Shown: positions 4,567 through 8,093 of the stretch, piece after piece | Layout of the letters: the number at the start of each line of letters is the position of its first letter | How positions within the stretch are numbered: position 1 is the first letter of the stretch | Source of the DNA: a bacterium | GTDB lineage: Bacteria; T1Sed10-126 | NCBI GenBank assembly: GCA_003557545.1 | Contig: PWOD01000204.1 | Location: forward strand, 1 to 8,093 | Length of the DNA: 8,093 bases | Reading direction: 5' to 3' | Position numbers and translations under genes: made by a program | Notes under the pieces: generated by a model | The model's database searches: none | The model's input: only the letters and a program-made list of their open reading frames with translations | What the model was told of the DNA's origin: nothing

Positions 4567-5550
4567 TCAGAGGACTTCTCGTAATCTTTCGGTTAACCGG
4601 ATAGCGTTGTCGAAATTTCTCATCCCCATAAAACTGATGTTTGCTCCGATAAGACAGGGGTTATTAAGCCGCTGATTGGTCTGTATAATCTTTTCTAGCA
4701 CCTTTGCTGATTCATCAATTGAAACATCAACTGGATTTTTACTATTTAAAATTTTTCGTTCAAGAGCTTCCGGAATTTTTACACCCAACCAGCGCATGAA
4801 ATTGATATCTTTTTTTTCGGCGATTGGAGCAAAACTCCAGAAAATCGCCGGACTGTCCGTCCCGGTTTCTCCAAGTTCCAGGTCGAGATCTTCAAGAAGT
4901 TTTGTTGCTGACCCGGCTTCGGTGATAATCTGTGTGGTGAAAAAGTCGGCGCCGCATCTAATTTTATAAGAGATTCTTTCCGGTTCATCCAGGCTGCTCA
5001 GGCGTCGCGTTGGTATACAGATATTTCCGATGAGGTAATCGGTTGGGTTCGCTGAATTGTTGAGCAGATTTGTTTTGCCGTTGTTTAAATTTTCTCGGAT
5101 TAGTCGATTGGCCTCCGGGACCGACAGCCCGTTATAGGCATCAGCCTCCTGTTCACCACCAACCACAACAAGATTTTCCAGGGCATAATTTTCGGCTGTT
5201 TCTATTAACCATTCTTCCTCTACTGCCGGGGGATTGTGGACGACAACCCGGCAGATTATGATTTTTTGGTTGGGAAAATGGGTGCGCAACTGTTGGGCGT
5301 ATTCTCGTGGTTGATAGCGTGGTTTAAATGAACTTTTCCTTTGACCTTTTTCACTCTTGCTTTGCTCTTCACGGATCTCTGGAAGATTAATACCGTCTAC
5401 CCGGGAACGCTCAAACAGTTCAGATAGTTTGTTGATTCGTAATTTTAACTCCTGCTCGTCTGCATCAAGTTCAGGGGGGATCAGTTCAAATAATAGTGGT
5501 TTATCAGAAAATCGTTGAGATATTCGGGCAATCCTGGGCTGGTTTGGCAA
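4567..5550 (-). CDS. Methylenetetrahydrofolate reductase-like protein (divergent MetF family)
   Basis: MTHFRs reduce 5,10-methylene-tetrahydrofolate to the 5-methyl form with a flavin in a TIM barrel, feeding methionine synthesis or the methyl branch of acetogenesis. The 327-residue protein is slightly longer than typical MetF (about 300). It has 'FELIPPE' at 21-27, matching 'FEFFPP' with the catalytic Glu (Glu22 here, Glu28 in E. coli). It also has 'DGINLPEI', 'VVGGE' near the place of the E. coli 'LRGD' loop, 'GLSVPEA', 'IGNICIP', an 'E..R...K...GADFFTTQ' block with the conserved Gln, and a late 'GANISFM'. A Lys/Ser/Arg-rich insert near residues 62-80 is unusual. The start is TTG at 5550, with a near-perfect AAGGAGG 8 bases upstream on its own strand. 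The gene stands alone, divergent from yajC, and its stop abuts the nadB stop. The family is likely. Substrate and reductant are uncertain, so no symbol is given. Confidence 0.75.
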   Translation of the reverse strand: MPNQPRIARISQRFSDKPLLFELIPPELDADEQELKLRINKLSELFERSRVDGINLPEIREEQSKSEKGQRKSSFKPRYQPREYAQQLRTHFPNQKIIICRVVVHNPPAVEEEWLIETAENYALENLVVVGGEQEADAYNGLSVPEANRLIRENLNNGKTNLLNNSANPTDYLIGNICIPTRRLSSLDEPERISYKIRCGADFFTTQIITEAGSATKLLEDLDLELGETGTDSPAIFWSFAPIAEKKDINFMRWLGVKIPEALERKILNSKNPVDVSIDESAKVLEKIIQTNQRLNNPCLIGANISFMGMRNFDNAIRLTERLREVL

Positions 5551-6028: not shown

Positions 6029-6358
6029 ATGGATTTGTTTACAATTTCTTCAGCTTATGCGATGACGGTCGAAAATGGTAATGGGGGCGGTGGTTTTGGG
6101 ACAACAATTTTGATGCTTGCAATAATTTTTGGTATCTTTTATTTTCTGCTTATTAGGCCTCAGAAAAAACAGCAGGCTAAACATCAGGAGATGTTGTCCG
6201 AATTAAGTGCCGGGGACAGAGTTATTACAGCCGGCGGAATTCATGGAAAGATTATTTCGGTTAAAGACAACCAGGTTAAACTTGATGTCTATAAAGATTT
6301 CAAATTAACTCTGGAAAAGTCCTCAATTTCCACTGTTAAGGGTAGTGAAGATGATTAA
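6029..6358 (+). CDS. yajC: YajC, accessory subunit of the Sec translocase
   Basis: YajC is a small inner-membrane protein that associates with SecDF and the SecYEG channel. The 109-residue product has the family plan. A short N-terminus contains a Gly-rich stretch (17-24). One membrane helix spans about 25-42 and ends in the hallmark 'YFLLIRPQKKQQ'. A small beta domain follows with 'LSAGDRVITAGGIHGKI', typical of YajC. The length is normal. ATG 6029 is preceded by TAGGAGG (6011-6017, 11 bases away), with AAGG closer at 6 bases. In many bacteria yajC is followed by secD and secF. Here a TPR protein follows instead, overlapping the yajC stop by 8 bp, so secDF must lie elsewhere or be missing. 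yajC is the first gene of its transcription unit. Confidence 0.95.
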   Translation: MDLFTISSAYAMTVENGNGGGGFGTTILMLAIIFGIFYFLLIRPQKKQQAKHQEMLSELSAGDRVITAGGIHGKIISVKDNQVKLDVYKDFKLTLEKSSISTVKGSEDD

Positions 6359-7502
6359 ATATAAAAAAGAGCTTCTGGCAGATCTTGCAACCATAACCTT
6401 CGTAGTTGGACTGCTGCTTTTTTTCGGCAGCTCGGCACTGTTCGCTTCCGCTGATTATTTTCGTGATGGGCTCAGGTATTATTACCGGGAACAGTTTGAG
6501 CCGGCCCTGGAAAAATTTCAGCAGGCGATTGAACTGGAACCCTCCGATCCACGCCACCATTTCTTTGTGGCCAACAGCTATAAACATCTGGGTCAGTTTG
6601 ATAAGGCTGAGATTGCCTATCGTGAAGCGCTTGAGCTCTCTCCGGATTATATTACCGCCCGCCGCCGGCTGGCCTTTCTTTATTTTGACAATGGCCGCTG
6701 GGAAAAGGCGCAGGAGGAGTTTGAACAGTTAACTCAGGATGCACCGGGCGAGTTTGAATATCGTCATCATTATGCCATAACACTTTACCAGCTTGATCAG
6801 ATCGAGAGAGCCCGTGAGGAGTTTTATCGGGCTCGTGAGTTGCGACCGGATTCACCGGAGGTATTTTACTACCTGGGGAGGATTAGTCTTGATCGTGGTG
6901 AGTATATTAATGCGGTAAGTCGGTTTGACAGGGCTGTTGATGGTAAATCTGGTGAAGGTCGTTACCATTTTCATCGGGGACTGGCCTTTTTTCGGATGGA
7001 AGACTATCTGGAACCGGAGGTCGAGGTAAGATCGGTACCGGATTTTAGAAAGGCTATTGAATATAATTTTGATACAGAGCGTTCCCGGTTTCTGCTGGCC
7101 AATTCGCTGCTCTGCTGGGGATTACGCTTTGTGCGTGATGGACAGACTCAGGACGGGATCGATTATTTACGTGAAGCGGTGAGACTTTTTCGTACTGTAT
7201 TAGTGGCTGATCCTGAGGCCAGTAATGCTTATCATAACCTCGGCCTGAGCTATTTAGGAATTGGTAACCTTGATCTGGCGGTGGAAGCGCTCCGGGAAGC
7301 GGTTGAGCTGGAACCAGAGGTGGCATTTTTTCATGATAGCCTGGGACTTGCTCAGTTCCGCCGGGGTGATTTTAGAAGGGCTGTTACTGCCTGGCAGTTT
7401 GTTACCGAGATTAATCCTCAATATACTGAACATCCGATGCATGAACTTCTGGGTATTGAACCGTTTGAAGATCGTAAGCAGGAGGCTAGAATTCGCCAGT
7501 GA
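6351..7502 (+). CDS. Exported TPR-repeat protein, function unknown
   Basis: The 383-residue protein has a basic N-terminus (KYKK), a hydrophobic core at about 12-31, and 'FASA' with a plausible signal-peptidase site after Ala34. It is therefore probably periplasmic, or anchored if uncleaved. The rest is about nine tetratricopeptide repeats, for example 'ALEKFQQAIELEPSDP', 'AEIAYREALELSPDY', 'AREEFYRARELRPDS', 'AVEALREAVELEPEV' and 'AVTAWQFVTEINPQY'. The sixth is interrupted by a Glu/Val-rich insert ('YLEPEVEVRSVPDF'), and one later unit is lengthened. TPRs bind proteins, so this is likely a scaffold rather than an enzyme. ATG 6351 has AAGGG at 6338-6342, 8 bases upstream, and overlaps the yajC stop by 8 bp; GTG 6345 is too close to that site. 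The next gene overlaps the stop by 4 bp. An envelope assembly or secretion role is inferred from neighbours only. Confidence 0.85.
   Translation: MIKYKKELLADLATITFVVGLLLFFGSSALFASADYFRDGLRYYYREQFEPALEKFQQAIELEPSDPRHHFFVANSYKHLGQFDKAEIAYREALELSPDYITARRRLAFLYFDNGRWEKAQEEFEQLTQDAPGEFEYRHHYAITLYQLDQIERAREEFYRARELRPDSPEVFYYLGRISLDRGEYINAVSRFDRAVDGKSGEGRYHFHRGLAFFRMEDYLEPEVEVRSVPDFRKAIEYNFDTERSRFLLANSLLCWGLRFVRDGQTQDGIDYLREAVRLFRTVLVADPEASNAYHNLGLSYLGIGNLDLAVEALREAVELEPEVAFFHDSLGLAQFRRGDFRRAVTAWQFVTEINPQYTEHPMHELLGIEPFEDRKQEARIRQ
7480..7485 (+). promoter_or_regulatory. Ribosome binding site for the Pro-rich gene at 7499
   Basis: AGGAGG lies inside the end of the TPR gene, 13 bases before the GTG at 7499. 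The spacing is longer than usual, but no other start in that frame fits better, and the GTGA overlap with the TPR stop suggests coupled translation. Confidence 0.5.
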
Positions 7503-8093
7503 ACCGGAATGGGATCAAGAGGGGAATCTTTTCTATTAAGGTTCTGTCTAATTTTTTTATTTTCTCCATAGTTATACTGGTCTCTGTTTTAATGACAGGT
7601 CCGGTTTATGGCTGGCAGCGTCAGGCCGAGTCTCCTCTATATGATCTACGTAATTTTCCTGAATACCCACCTGTGGAGTATCCTGAGCCGGTTGAAGAAG
7701 AACAAGAAGAACCGGAACCTGTTTTTACCGAAGTGCCGGTGGACACACCAATTCCACCTCCACCAGTTCATCTTGACAGGCGACTTCCTCCACCCAACCA
7801 GCTGGAGGAGGACACACCACTTCCACCGACTCAGCCTGACCTTCGGCTTCCACCACCGGTAGACCCTCGTCGTGATACGCCGACTGAGCCCCCTGAAGAA
7901 CCTGAGGAAACCCCGGAAACCACCCCGGAAGAACCACCGCGCCGGCGTCGGCCTCTGCCACCACCGCCTCGCTCAGAAATCGAGGAAAGCTCTGATATTG
8001 AACAACAGACCATATATTCCGAGCAGCCGGCAGAGTCTGATACAGCTTCGGATGATACAGGATCAGAACTATTAGATTCGCTTATTCAGCAGC
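7499..8093 (+). CDS. Exported Pro/Glu-rich repeat protein, 3' end outside window
   Basis: The frame is open from GTG 7499 to the window edge, giving 198 residues without a stop. Its GTGA overlaps the TPR stop by 4 bases, and AGGAGG lies 13 bases upstream. The N-terminus is a signal peptide or anchor: basic residues (R3, K7, R8, K14), a hydrophobic stretch at about 15-33, and a possible cleavage site after 'VYG' at 38. After a short aromatic stretch the protein becomes low-complexity Pro/Glu. It has imperfect repeats beginning Asp-Thr-Pro at residues 82, 105 and 126, an 'RRRR' patch at 148-151 followed by 'PLPPPP', and then a Ser/Asp/Glu-rich part. Such segments are extended and can span the periplasm or cell wall, as in TonB's Pro-rich region, but the C-terminal domain that would identify it is missing. 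I do not recognise the gene. Other long frames here are by-products of the GC-rich proline codons. Confidence 0.75.
   Translation, partial: MNRNGIKRGIFSIKVLSNFFIFSIVILVSVLMTGPVYGWQRQAESPLYDLRNFPEYPPVEYPEPVEEEQEEPEPVFTEVPVDTPIPPPPVHLDRRLPPPNQLEEDTPLPPTQPDLRLPPPVDPRRDTPTEPPEEPEETPETTPEEPPRRRRPLPPPPRSEIEESSDIEQQTIYSEQPAESDTASDDTGSELLDSLIQQ
7742..7900 (+). repeat. Imperfect tandem repeat encoding Asp-Thr-Pro / Leu-Pro-Pro-Pro units
   Basis: Unit 1 (7742-7810, 23 codons) and unit 2 (7811-7873, 21 codons) each start with GACACACCA coding for Asp-Thr-Pro. Both continue with a Pro cluster, a basic residue and 'LPPP' before an acidic or basic end. A third, degenerate start (GATACGCCG) is at 7874. The units are in frame and look like internal duplication followed by divergence. 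Confidence 0.55.

Follow-up and report, generated by a model that had tools for sequence, protein, structure and literature searches.

A gene at a contig edge in a soda-lake bacterial lineage: a predicted envelope-spanning protein with a DUF6115/DUF2802-type tail and a possible flagellar connection

What lies at the far end of an exported, proline- and glutamate-rich chain that runs off the edge of its contig, and what could such a protein do for the cell? The question is raised by an 8,093-nucleotide stretch of DNA (the window), which is the complete contig C110 (PWOD01000204.1; GC content 46.2%) of the draft genome G000, an assembly of 239 contigs and 2.15 Mb. On its forward strand an open frame starts with GTG at position 7499 and continues for 198 codons, free of stops, up to the window edge. 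The preliminary description of this locus, made from the sequence alone, had read the frame as an exported spacer that reaches across the periplasm or wall to a C-terminal domain outside the window, possibly of the TonB, FecR, SPOR, OmpA or LysM type, and had recognised no family. The start of the frame overlaps the stop of the preceding TPR gene (TGA, 7500-7502), and an AGGAGG sequence at 7480-7485 of the same strand, a possible ribosome-binding site, is found 13 nt 5' of the GTG.

A search of G000 with the 3' part of the window also hit the end of contig C119. The two contigs overlap over the last 250 bases of the window (7844-8093), of which 242 are identical; the overlap is gap-free, stays in the same frame and contains eight substitutions, five of them silent and three missense. 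With the contigs joined, the frame (7499-8093 in the window, with the remainder on the minus strand of C119 at L003:6783-7547) gains 171 codons without an early stop, and with them a predicted transmembrane helix and a folded tail, to give a gene of 369 codons and a product of 369 residues. Because the overlap keeps the frame, the joined frame continues to a stop and the ortholog of a relative has both halves, the frame is confirmed as genuine and beyond chance. The contig extension that had been proposed as a check completes the gene, and the folded C-terminal domain anticipated outside the window is found there as an HTH-like tail. Contig C119 also encodes a 1263-residue protein (L003, 670-5720, minus strand) that combines ten InlB B-type repeats and GLUG motifs with a CHU_C/FlgD-like domain at the C-terminus; it adjoins a PorV/PorQ-family protein with TPR, a pairing that hints at a type IX-like secretion system for the lineage.

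The layout of the completed protein, well supported by sequence, consists of a signal peptide, a Pro/Glu/Asp-rich exported segment of about 208 residues, a second membrane helix, a basic patch and a C-terminal, HTH-like and putatively cytosolic tail. Hydropathy and sequence delimit the signal peptide or first transmembrane segment (residues 1-38; 7499-7612, forward strand), with a hydrophobic leader at residues 15-33 and a likely cleavage site after VYG. The mature N-terminus, SPLYDLRNFPE (7631-7663, forward strand), is conserved in the relative as DPLHDLRNIPE, in a local alignment whose score was equalled in 3 of 2000 shuffles. It is followed on the same strand by the Pro/Glu/Asp-rich spacer (7664-7972, defined by composition), which includes an RRRR patch (7940-7951), and by a Ser/Asp/Glu-rich stretch (7973-8093) that runs beyond the window to the second membrane helix and the tail (about residues 325-364); all three elements had been described before. 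The exported segment as a whole (residues 42-249) contains 21% Pro, 15% Glu and 7% Asp. The second membrane helix (residues 250-268; PWYWGIPLLALVILLVYLW) is directly followed by the basic patch, and the 101 residues C-terminal of it are first basic, then HTH-like. Given this helix and the positive charges after it, the positive-inside rule argues for a C-terminus in the cytosol and an arm outside the inner membrane. The spacer is therefore not expected to carry a domain across the periplasm or wall, as had been suggested; the chain appears to recross the membrane instead. No solved structure was found for the protein by sequence.

Upstream of the edge gene lies the gene of an exported TPR protein of 385 aa (6345-7502, forward strand; assigned with Pfam TPR models), whose start overlaps the end of yajC and whose stop overlaps the GTG of the edge gene. 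Its ortholog occupies the same position in the relative, with 205 of 385 residues identical, while a scan of genome contigs with this TPR protein gave no relative. Among 97 other genomes sampled, a good match to the edge protein was present in only one, G001, which belongs to the same family; a strong match to an alignment of the two tails was obtained in two of 386 genomes, again G000 and G001, and a plasmid search found no relative. In G001 a single contig contains the whole ortholog, of 438 codons and with a tail 63% identical to that of G000; its spacer encloses a LysM domain (44.4 bits against a cut-off of 20.9), for which the protein of the window species has no Pfam match. The order nadB, MTHFR-like gene, yajC, TPR gene, edge gene is kept in G001. 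Both the frame and its GTG start are thus conserved in the relative; as the G001 start is 14 bases past the TPR stop, the adjacency of the two genes is conserved but the exact start/stop overlap, which the preliminary description had noted, is not. Its coupling of an exported spacer to a TPR gene nevertheless agrees with the composition, the overlap in the window and the retained gene order, and the two genes are probably co-translated. The MTHFR-like protein (327 residues; 4567-5550, minus strand) scores 23 bits against a Pfam cut-off of 24, has a positionally conserved counterpart in the relative (L008:11124-12176) and is read as a divergent methylenetetrahydrofolate reductase. A published table gives two genomes, of 2.15-2.2 Mb and 46-48% GC and recovered from sediment of hypersaline soda lakes, for the GTDB phylum T1Sed10-126 (Candidatus Busufiota; PMC11382960); G000 and G001 agree with these in size and probably are the two members. 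The edge protein is known from just these two genomes of a deep-branching, phylum-level lineage.

The tail is the part of the protein with recognisable relatives, albeit distant ones. Pfam DUF6115 (PF19610) scores 16.3 bits on the G000 tail and 18.5 on the G001 tail against a cut-off of 27, with the last ~34 of 134 positions aligned, and DUF2802 (PF10975) left the edge gene unmatched in both genomes at 1e-3. Weak matches to the tail elsewhere are mostly short membrane proteins in which a coiled coil is followed by a DUF6115-type end, with some sigma factors among them. A DUF6115 tail profile with seeds chosen by Pfam match, independently of the edge protein's tail, gave 29.1 (G000) and 32.9 bits (G001), on a par with the 31.0 and 30.0 bits of the flagellar DUF6115 proteins in the same genomes. 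When 20 DUF6115 tails were searched against the whole of G000 they found two places only, the flagellar protein (6e-15) and the edge gene (4e-8); in G001 they found the flagellar protein (3e-12) and the ortholog (3e-9), and matches of sigma-factor size appeared only near 1e-4. The relation needed profiles to be seen, as BLASTP did not match the tail to the flagellar DUF6115 protein encoded in the same genome. These comparisons identify the tail as HTH-like and of the DUF6115/DUF2802 superfamily, and since the curated cut-offs are missed, it is placed as a relative of these families and not as a member. Residues G336, E352 and L355 of the tail are spaced by 16 and 3 positions, as in the ortholog and, read from its sequence, in the DUF2802 protein L071, a spacing partly common to HTH domains generally. 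Matches to Pfam DUF2802 and DUF6115 coincide in position and in protein (G171:C28, G151:C51, G284:C242, G024:C62, G096:C1, G234:C1 and others), so the two families share one tail domain. The AlphaFold2 model of the tail is an HTH bundle of helices (mean pLDDT 79.5), and the model of the whole ortholog is poor (mean pLDDT 53) with helices at the expected places.

Across genomes, DUF6115 keeps company with FlhF. A DUF6115 match above cut-off was present in 39 of 386 genomes, and FlhF was above its cut-off in 31 of these 39 compared with 67 of the 347 others (Fisher p 7e-14, with genomes counted as independent despite their kinship). In 12 of the 39 (G260, G171, G190, G310, G156, G001, G024, G193, G295, G215, G222 and G074) a DUF6115 gene lies less than 10 kb from flhF, the FlhF match in G156 and G193 being under its cut-off. 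Both G000 and G001 have FlhA and FlhF, and each encodes, directly behind fliA, a short DUF6115 protein distinct from the edge protein; in this flagellar cluster a receiver-like gene (L018:4338-4700) directly follows the short DUF6115 gene.

The edge protein is also not alone in its general build. Proteins in which a signal peptide, an exported region and a TM helix precede a DUF6115 tail above cut-off are present in no fewer than seven other genomes: L034 (G260), L046 (G079), L061 (G193) and L064 (G284), L043 (G190) and L063 (G295) with exported TPR, and L050 (G156) with an exported AMIN-like region. Five of them (L034, L043, L050, L061 and L063) are encoded 3-7 kb from flhF. The closest look-alike of the edge protein is L076 (G209), with a Pro/Ser-rich arm, a TM helix and a DUF2802-like tail. 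What these proteins share with the edge protein is the signal peptide, exported region, TM helix and type of tail; their exported domains are different, with no LysM seen, and the likeness in sequence is confined to the tail. In the G000/G001 lineage the TPR part is encoded apart, by the neighbouring gene. Together these proteins apparently form a recurrent and undescribed class, in which exported arms of TPR, AMIN-like, LysM or Pro-rich type have repeatedly been joined to the tail domain. In a separate case, L057 (G304:C1:2046292), a DUF6115 tail ends a very long coiled-coil protein with an open frame of more than 1700 residues.

The reading we prefer, at a probability of roughly 45%, is that the edge protein is a membrane tether anchored in the wall, with a tail that binds a partner from the flagellar or polarity machinery, for instance FlhF. 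The sequences themselves give the architecture and topology signals, the orthology, the superfamily of the tail and its genomic association with FlhF, and they contain flhF and flagellar genes; from there we infer wall contact, the topology itself, the partner and a role in placing or activating flagella. Export by the Sec pathway would put the N-terminal Pro/Glu-rich arm on the outer side of the inner membrane and, once the signal peptide is removed, leave a single-pass, envelope-spanning protein. For the sister species, wall contact would come from binding of peptidoglycan by the arm's LysM domain, while in the window species the arm may reach the wall by its length alone or be bound by the neighbouring exported TPR protein. 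The second hydrophobic segment would cross the membrane with the basic patch on its inner side, and the cytosolic DUF6115/DUF2802-type tail could then keep FlhF, or else the basal body in the manner of SwrB, at a membrane site anchored to the wall, thereby helping to place or activate flagella. Several observations count against this scheme: the arm of the window species is without a LysM domain, the edge gene adjoins yajC and the TPR gene outside the flagellar operon, the tail stays under the Pfam cut-off for DUF6115 and is unmatched by DUF2802, its G/E/L spacing is partly general to HTH domains, and the co-occurrence statistic treats related genomes as independent. With the separate short DUF6115 protein in place after fliA, the edge copy may indeed have left flagella.

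Given the gene's position outside the flagellar cluster and the short DUF6115 protein already residing there, a general role in the envelope remains a serious rival, although we consider it somewhat unlikely. The protein would be a scaffold unrelated to flagella that, together with the exported TPR protein, links peptidoglycan to a cytosolic organiser, like a reversed counterpart of RodZ. The neighbourhood of yajC and the TPR gene in both genomes fits such a role, and so do the TPR repeats or AMIN-like domains of the exported-domain proteins elsewhere; against it, the relatives of the tail track FlhF, and both genomes encode a RodZ-type protein of their own, with HTH_25, apart from the edge gene. 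RodZ carries its HTH at the N-terminus; the HTH of the edge gene is C-terminal and gives no match to the RodZ-type HTH_25. The idea that the edge protein replaces RodZ was dropped, as both genomes have an HTH_25 protein.

It is improbable, but less so than the readings that follow, that the protein is a membrane-tethered transcription regulator whose tail, resembling sigma region 4, binds DNA or RNA polymerase upon a signal from the wall. The idea draws on weak matches to Pfam Sigma70_r4_2 (16.6 and 21.6 bits on the two tails, under the cut-off of 25.7) and on the tail model, which among solved folds comes closest to sigma region 4 and to further HTH domains. The best of these is a middling match (Z 6.2, rmsd 3.0, 59 residues), every Foldseek E-value exceeds 0.4, none of the fold matches listed carries a DUF6115 or DUF2802 label, and the fold matches of the model only say HTH and nothing narrower. 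A sigma region 4 profile from segments of 28 sigma factors, chosen by Pfam match, scored the tails at 4.1 (G000) and 18.3 bits (G001), below their DUF6115 scores, and the flagellar DUF6115 proteins of the two genomes at 6.1 and 7.0; sigma-factor controls reached 51-75 bits with this profile and 3-4 bits with that of DUF6115. A first version of the sigma profile, which had given the tails 27.6 and 42.3 bits, was rejected as biased, its seeds being mostly sigma factors recruited by the tail itself. The last helix of the tail (RGELGLVINLAELIT) is hydrophobic and acidic, whereas the recognition helices of the sigma factors examined are basic. This, together with the poor fit to the sigma profile, makes a DNA-binding role less likely.

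The original expectation of a spacer ending in an outer-membrane or wall domain of the TonB, SPOR, OmpA or LysM type we regard as very improbable: the exported Pro/Glu-rich arm and the LysM of the relative would suit it, but that LysM sits in the middle of the spacer and in the sister species only, the second membrane helix leads into a basic patch and a cytosolic-type tail related to DUF6115/DUF2802, and neither Pfam nor NCBIfam matched a TonB-, SPOR- or OmpA-type domain in the completed C-terminal part. That the contigs were wrongly joined and the full-length protein is an artefact is hardly credible, for although the junction is a 97% identical overlap taken from assembled contigs rather than from reads, both contigs terminate exactly within it with the frame maintained, and the relative holds both halves in a single uninterrupted gene.

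The edge protein resembles three known systems in part. The FimV LysM domain binds peptidoglycan, and it stabilises and is needed for polar anchoring (PMC12918733). FimV/HubP and the edge protein have in common a signal peptide, a periplasmic LysM (in the sister species, with no match in the window species), one TM helix and acidic, repetitive segments; however, these segments are cytosolic in FimV and outside in the edge protein, and the cytosolic end is a FimV TPR domain in the former and a DUF6115-type tail in the latter. The FimV_core profile matched neither the edge protein nor anything in any control genome, so its silence does not demonstrate absence. The second system is SwrB, whose gene lies within the flagellar operon; the B. 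subtilis genome gives a DUF6115 match, which we take to be this protein. SwrB is a single-pass membrane protein that activates the flagellar export apparatus (PMC4526659), and it resembles the edge protein in its cytosolic part, with a tail probably of the same type as that of FipA, but it is without an exported arm, and in G000 and G001 the short protein encoded after fliA is already SwrB-like. The third, FipA, a DUF2802 protein, recruits FlhF to the cell pole; in the V. parahaemolyticus protein three residues, G110, E126 and L129, are invariant, the first and the last of them being required for FlhF binding (PMC11620751). FipA and the edge protein both have one membrane helix followed by a cytosolic C-terminal domain of the same superfamily, with the same G/E/L spacing and FlhF in the genome. 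FipA differs in its ~5 periplasmic residues and coiled coil, in place of an exported arm of ~208 residues, and in the position of its gene after the flagellar operon and not beside yajC and a TPR gene. On the question of how flagellum placement is tied to the cell wall, the known holders are separate proteins: FimV/HubP for the wall and FipA for FlhF. We tentatively suggest, as a possibility with the odds against it, that the arm-TM-tail class unites in one chain a wall-binding landmark in the role of FimV/HubP and a tail of the FipA/SwrB type for recruiting FlhF or activating the basal body, with the edge protein as its LysM-Pro/Glu version. A wall-facing exported part and such a tail in a single chain would make this link directly testable.
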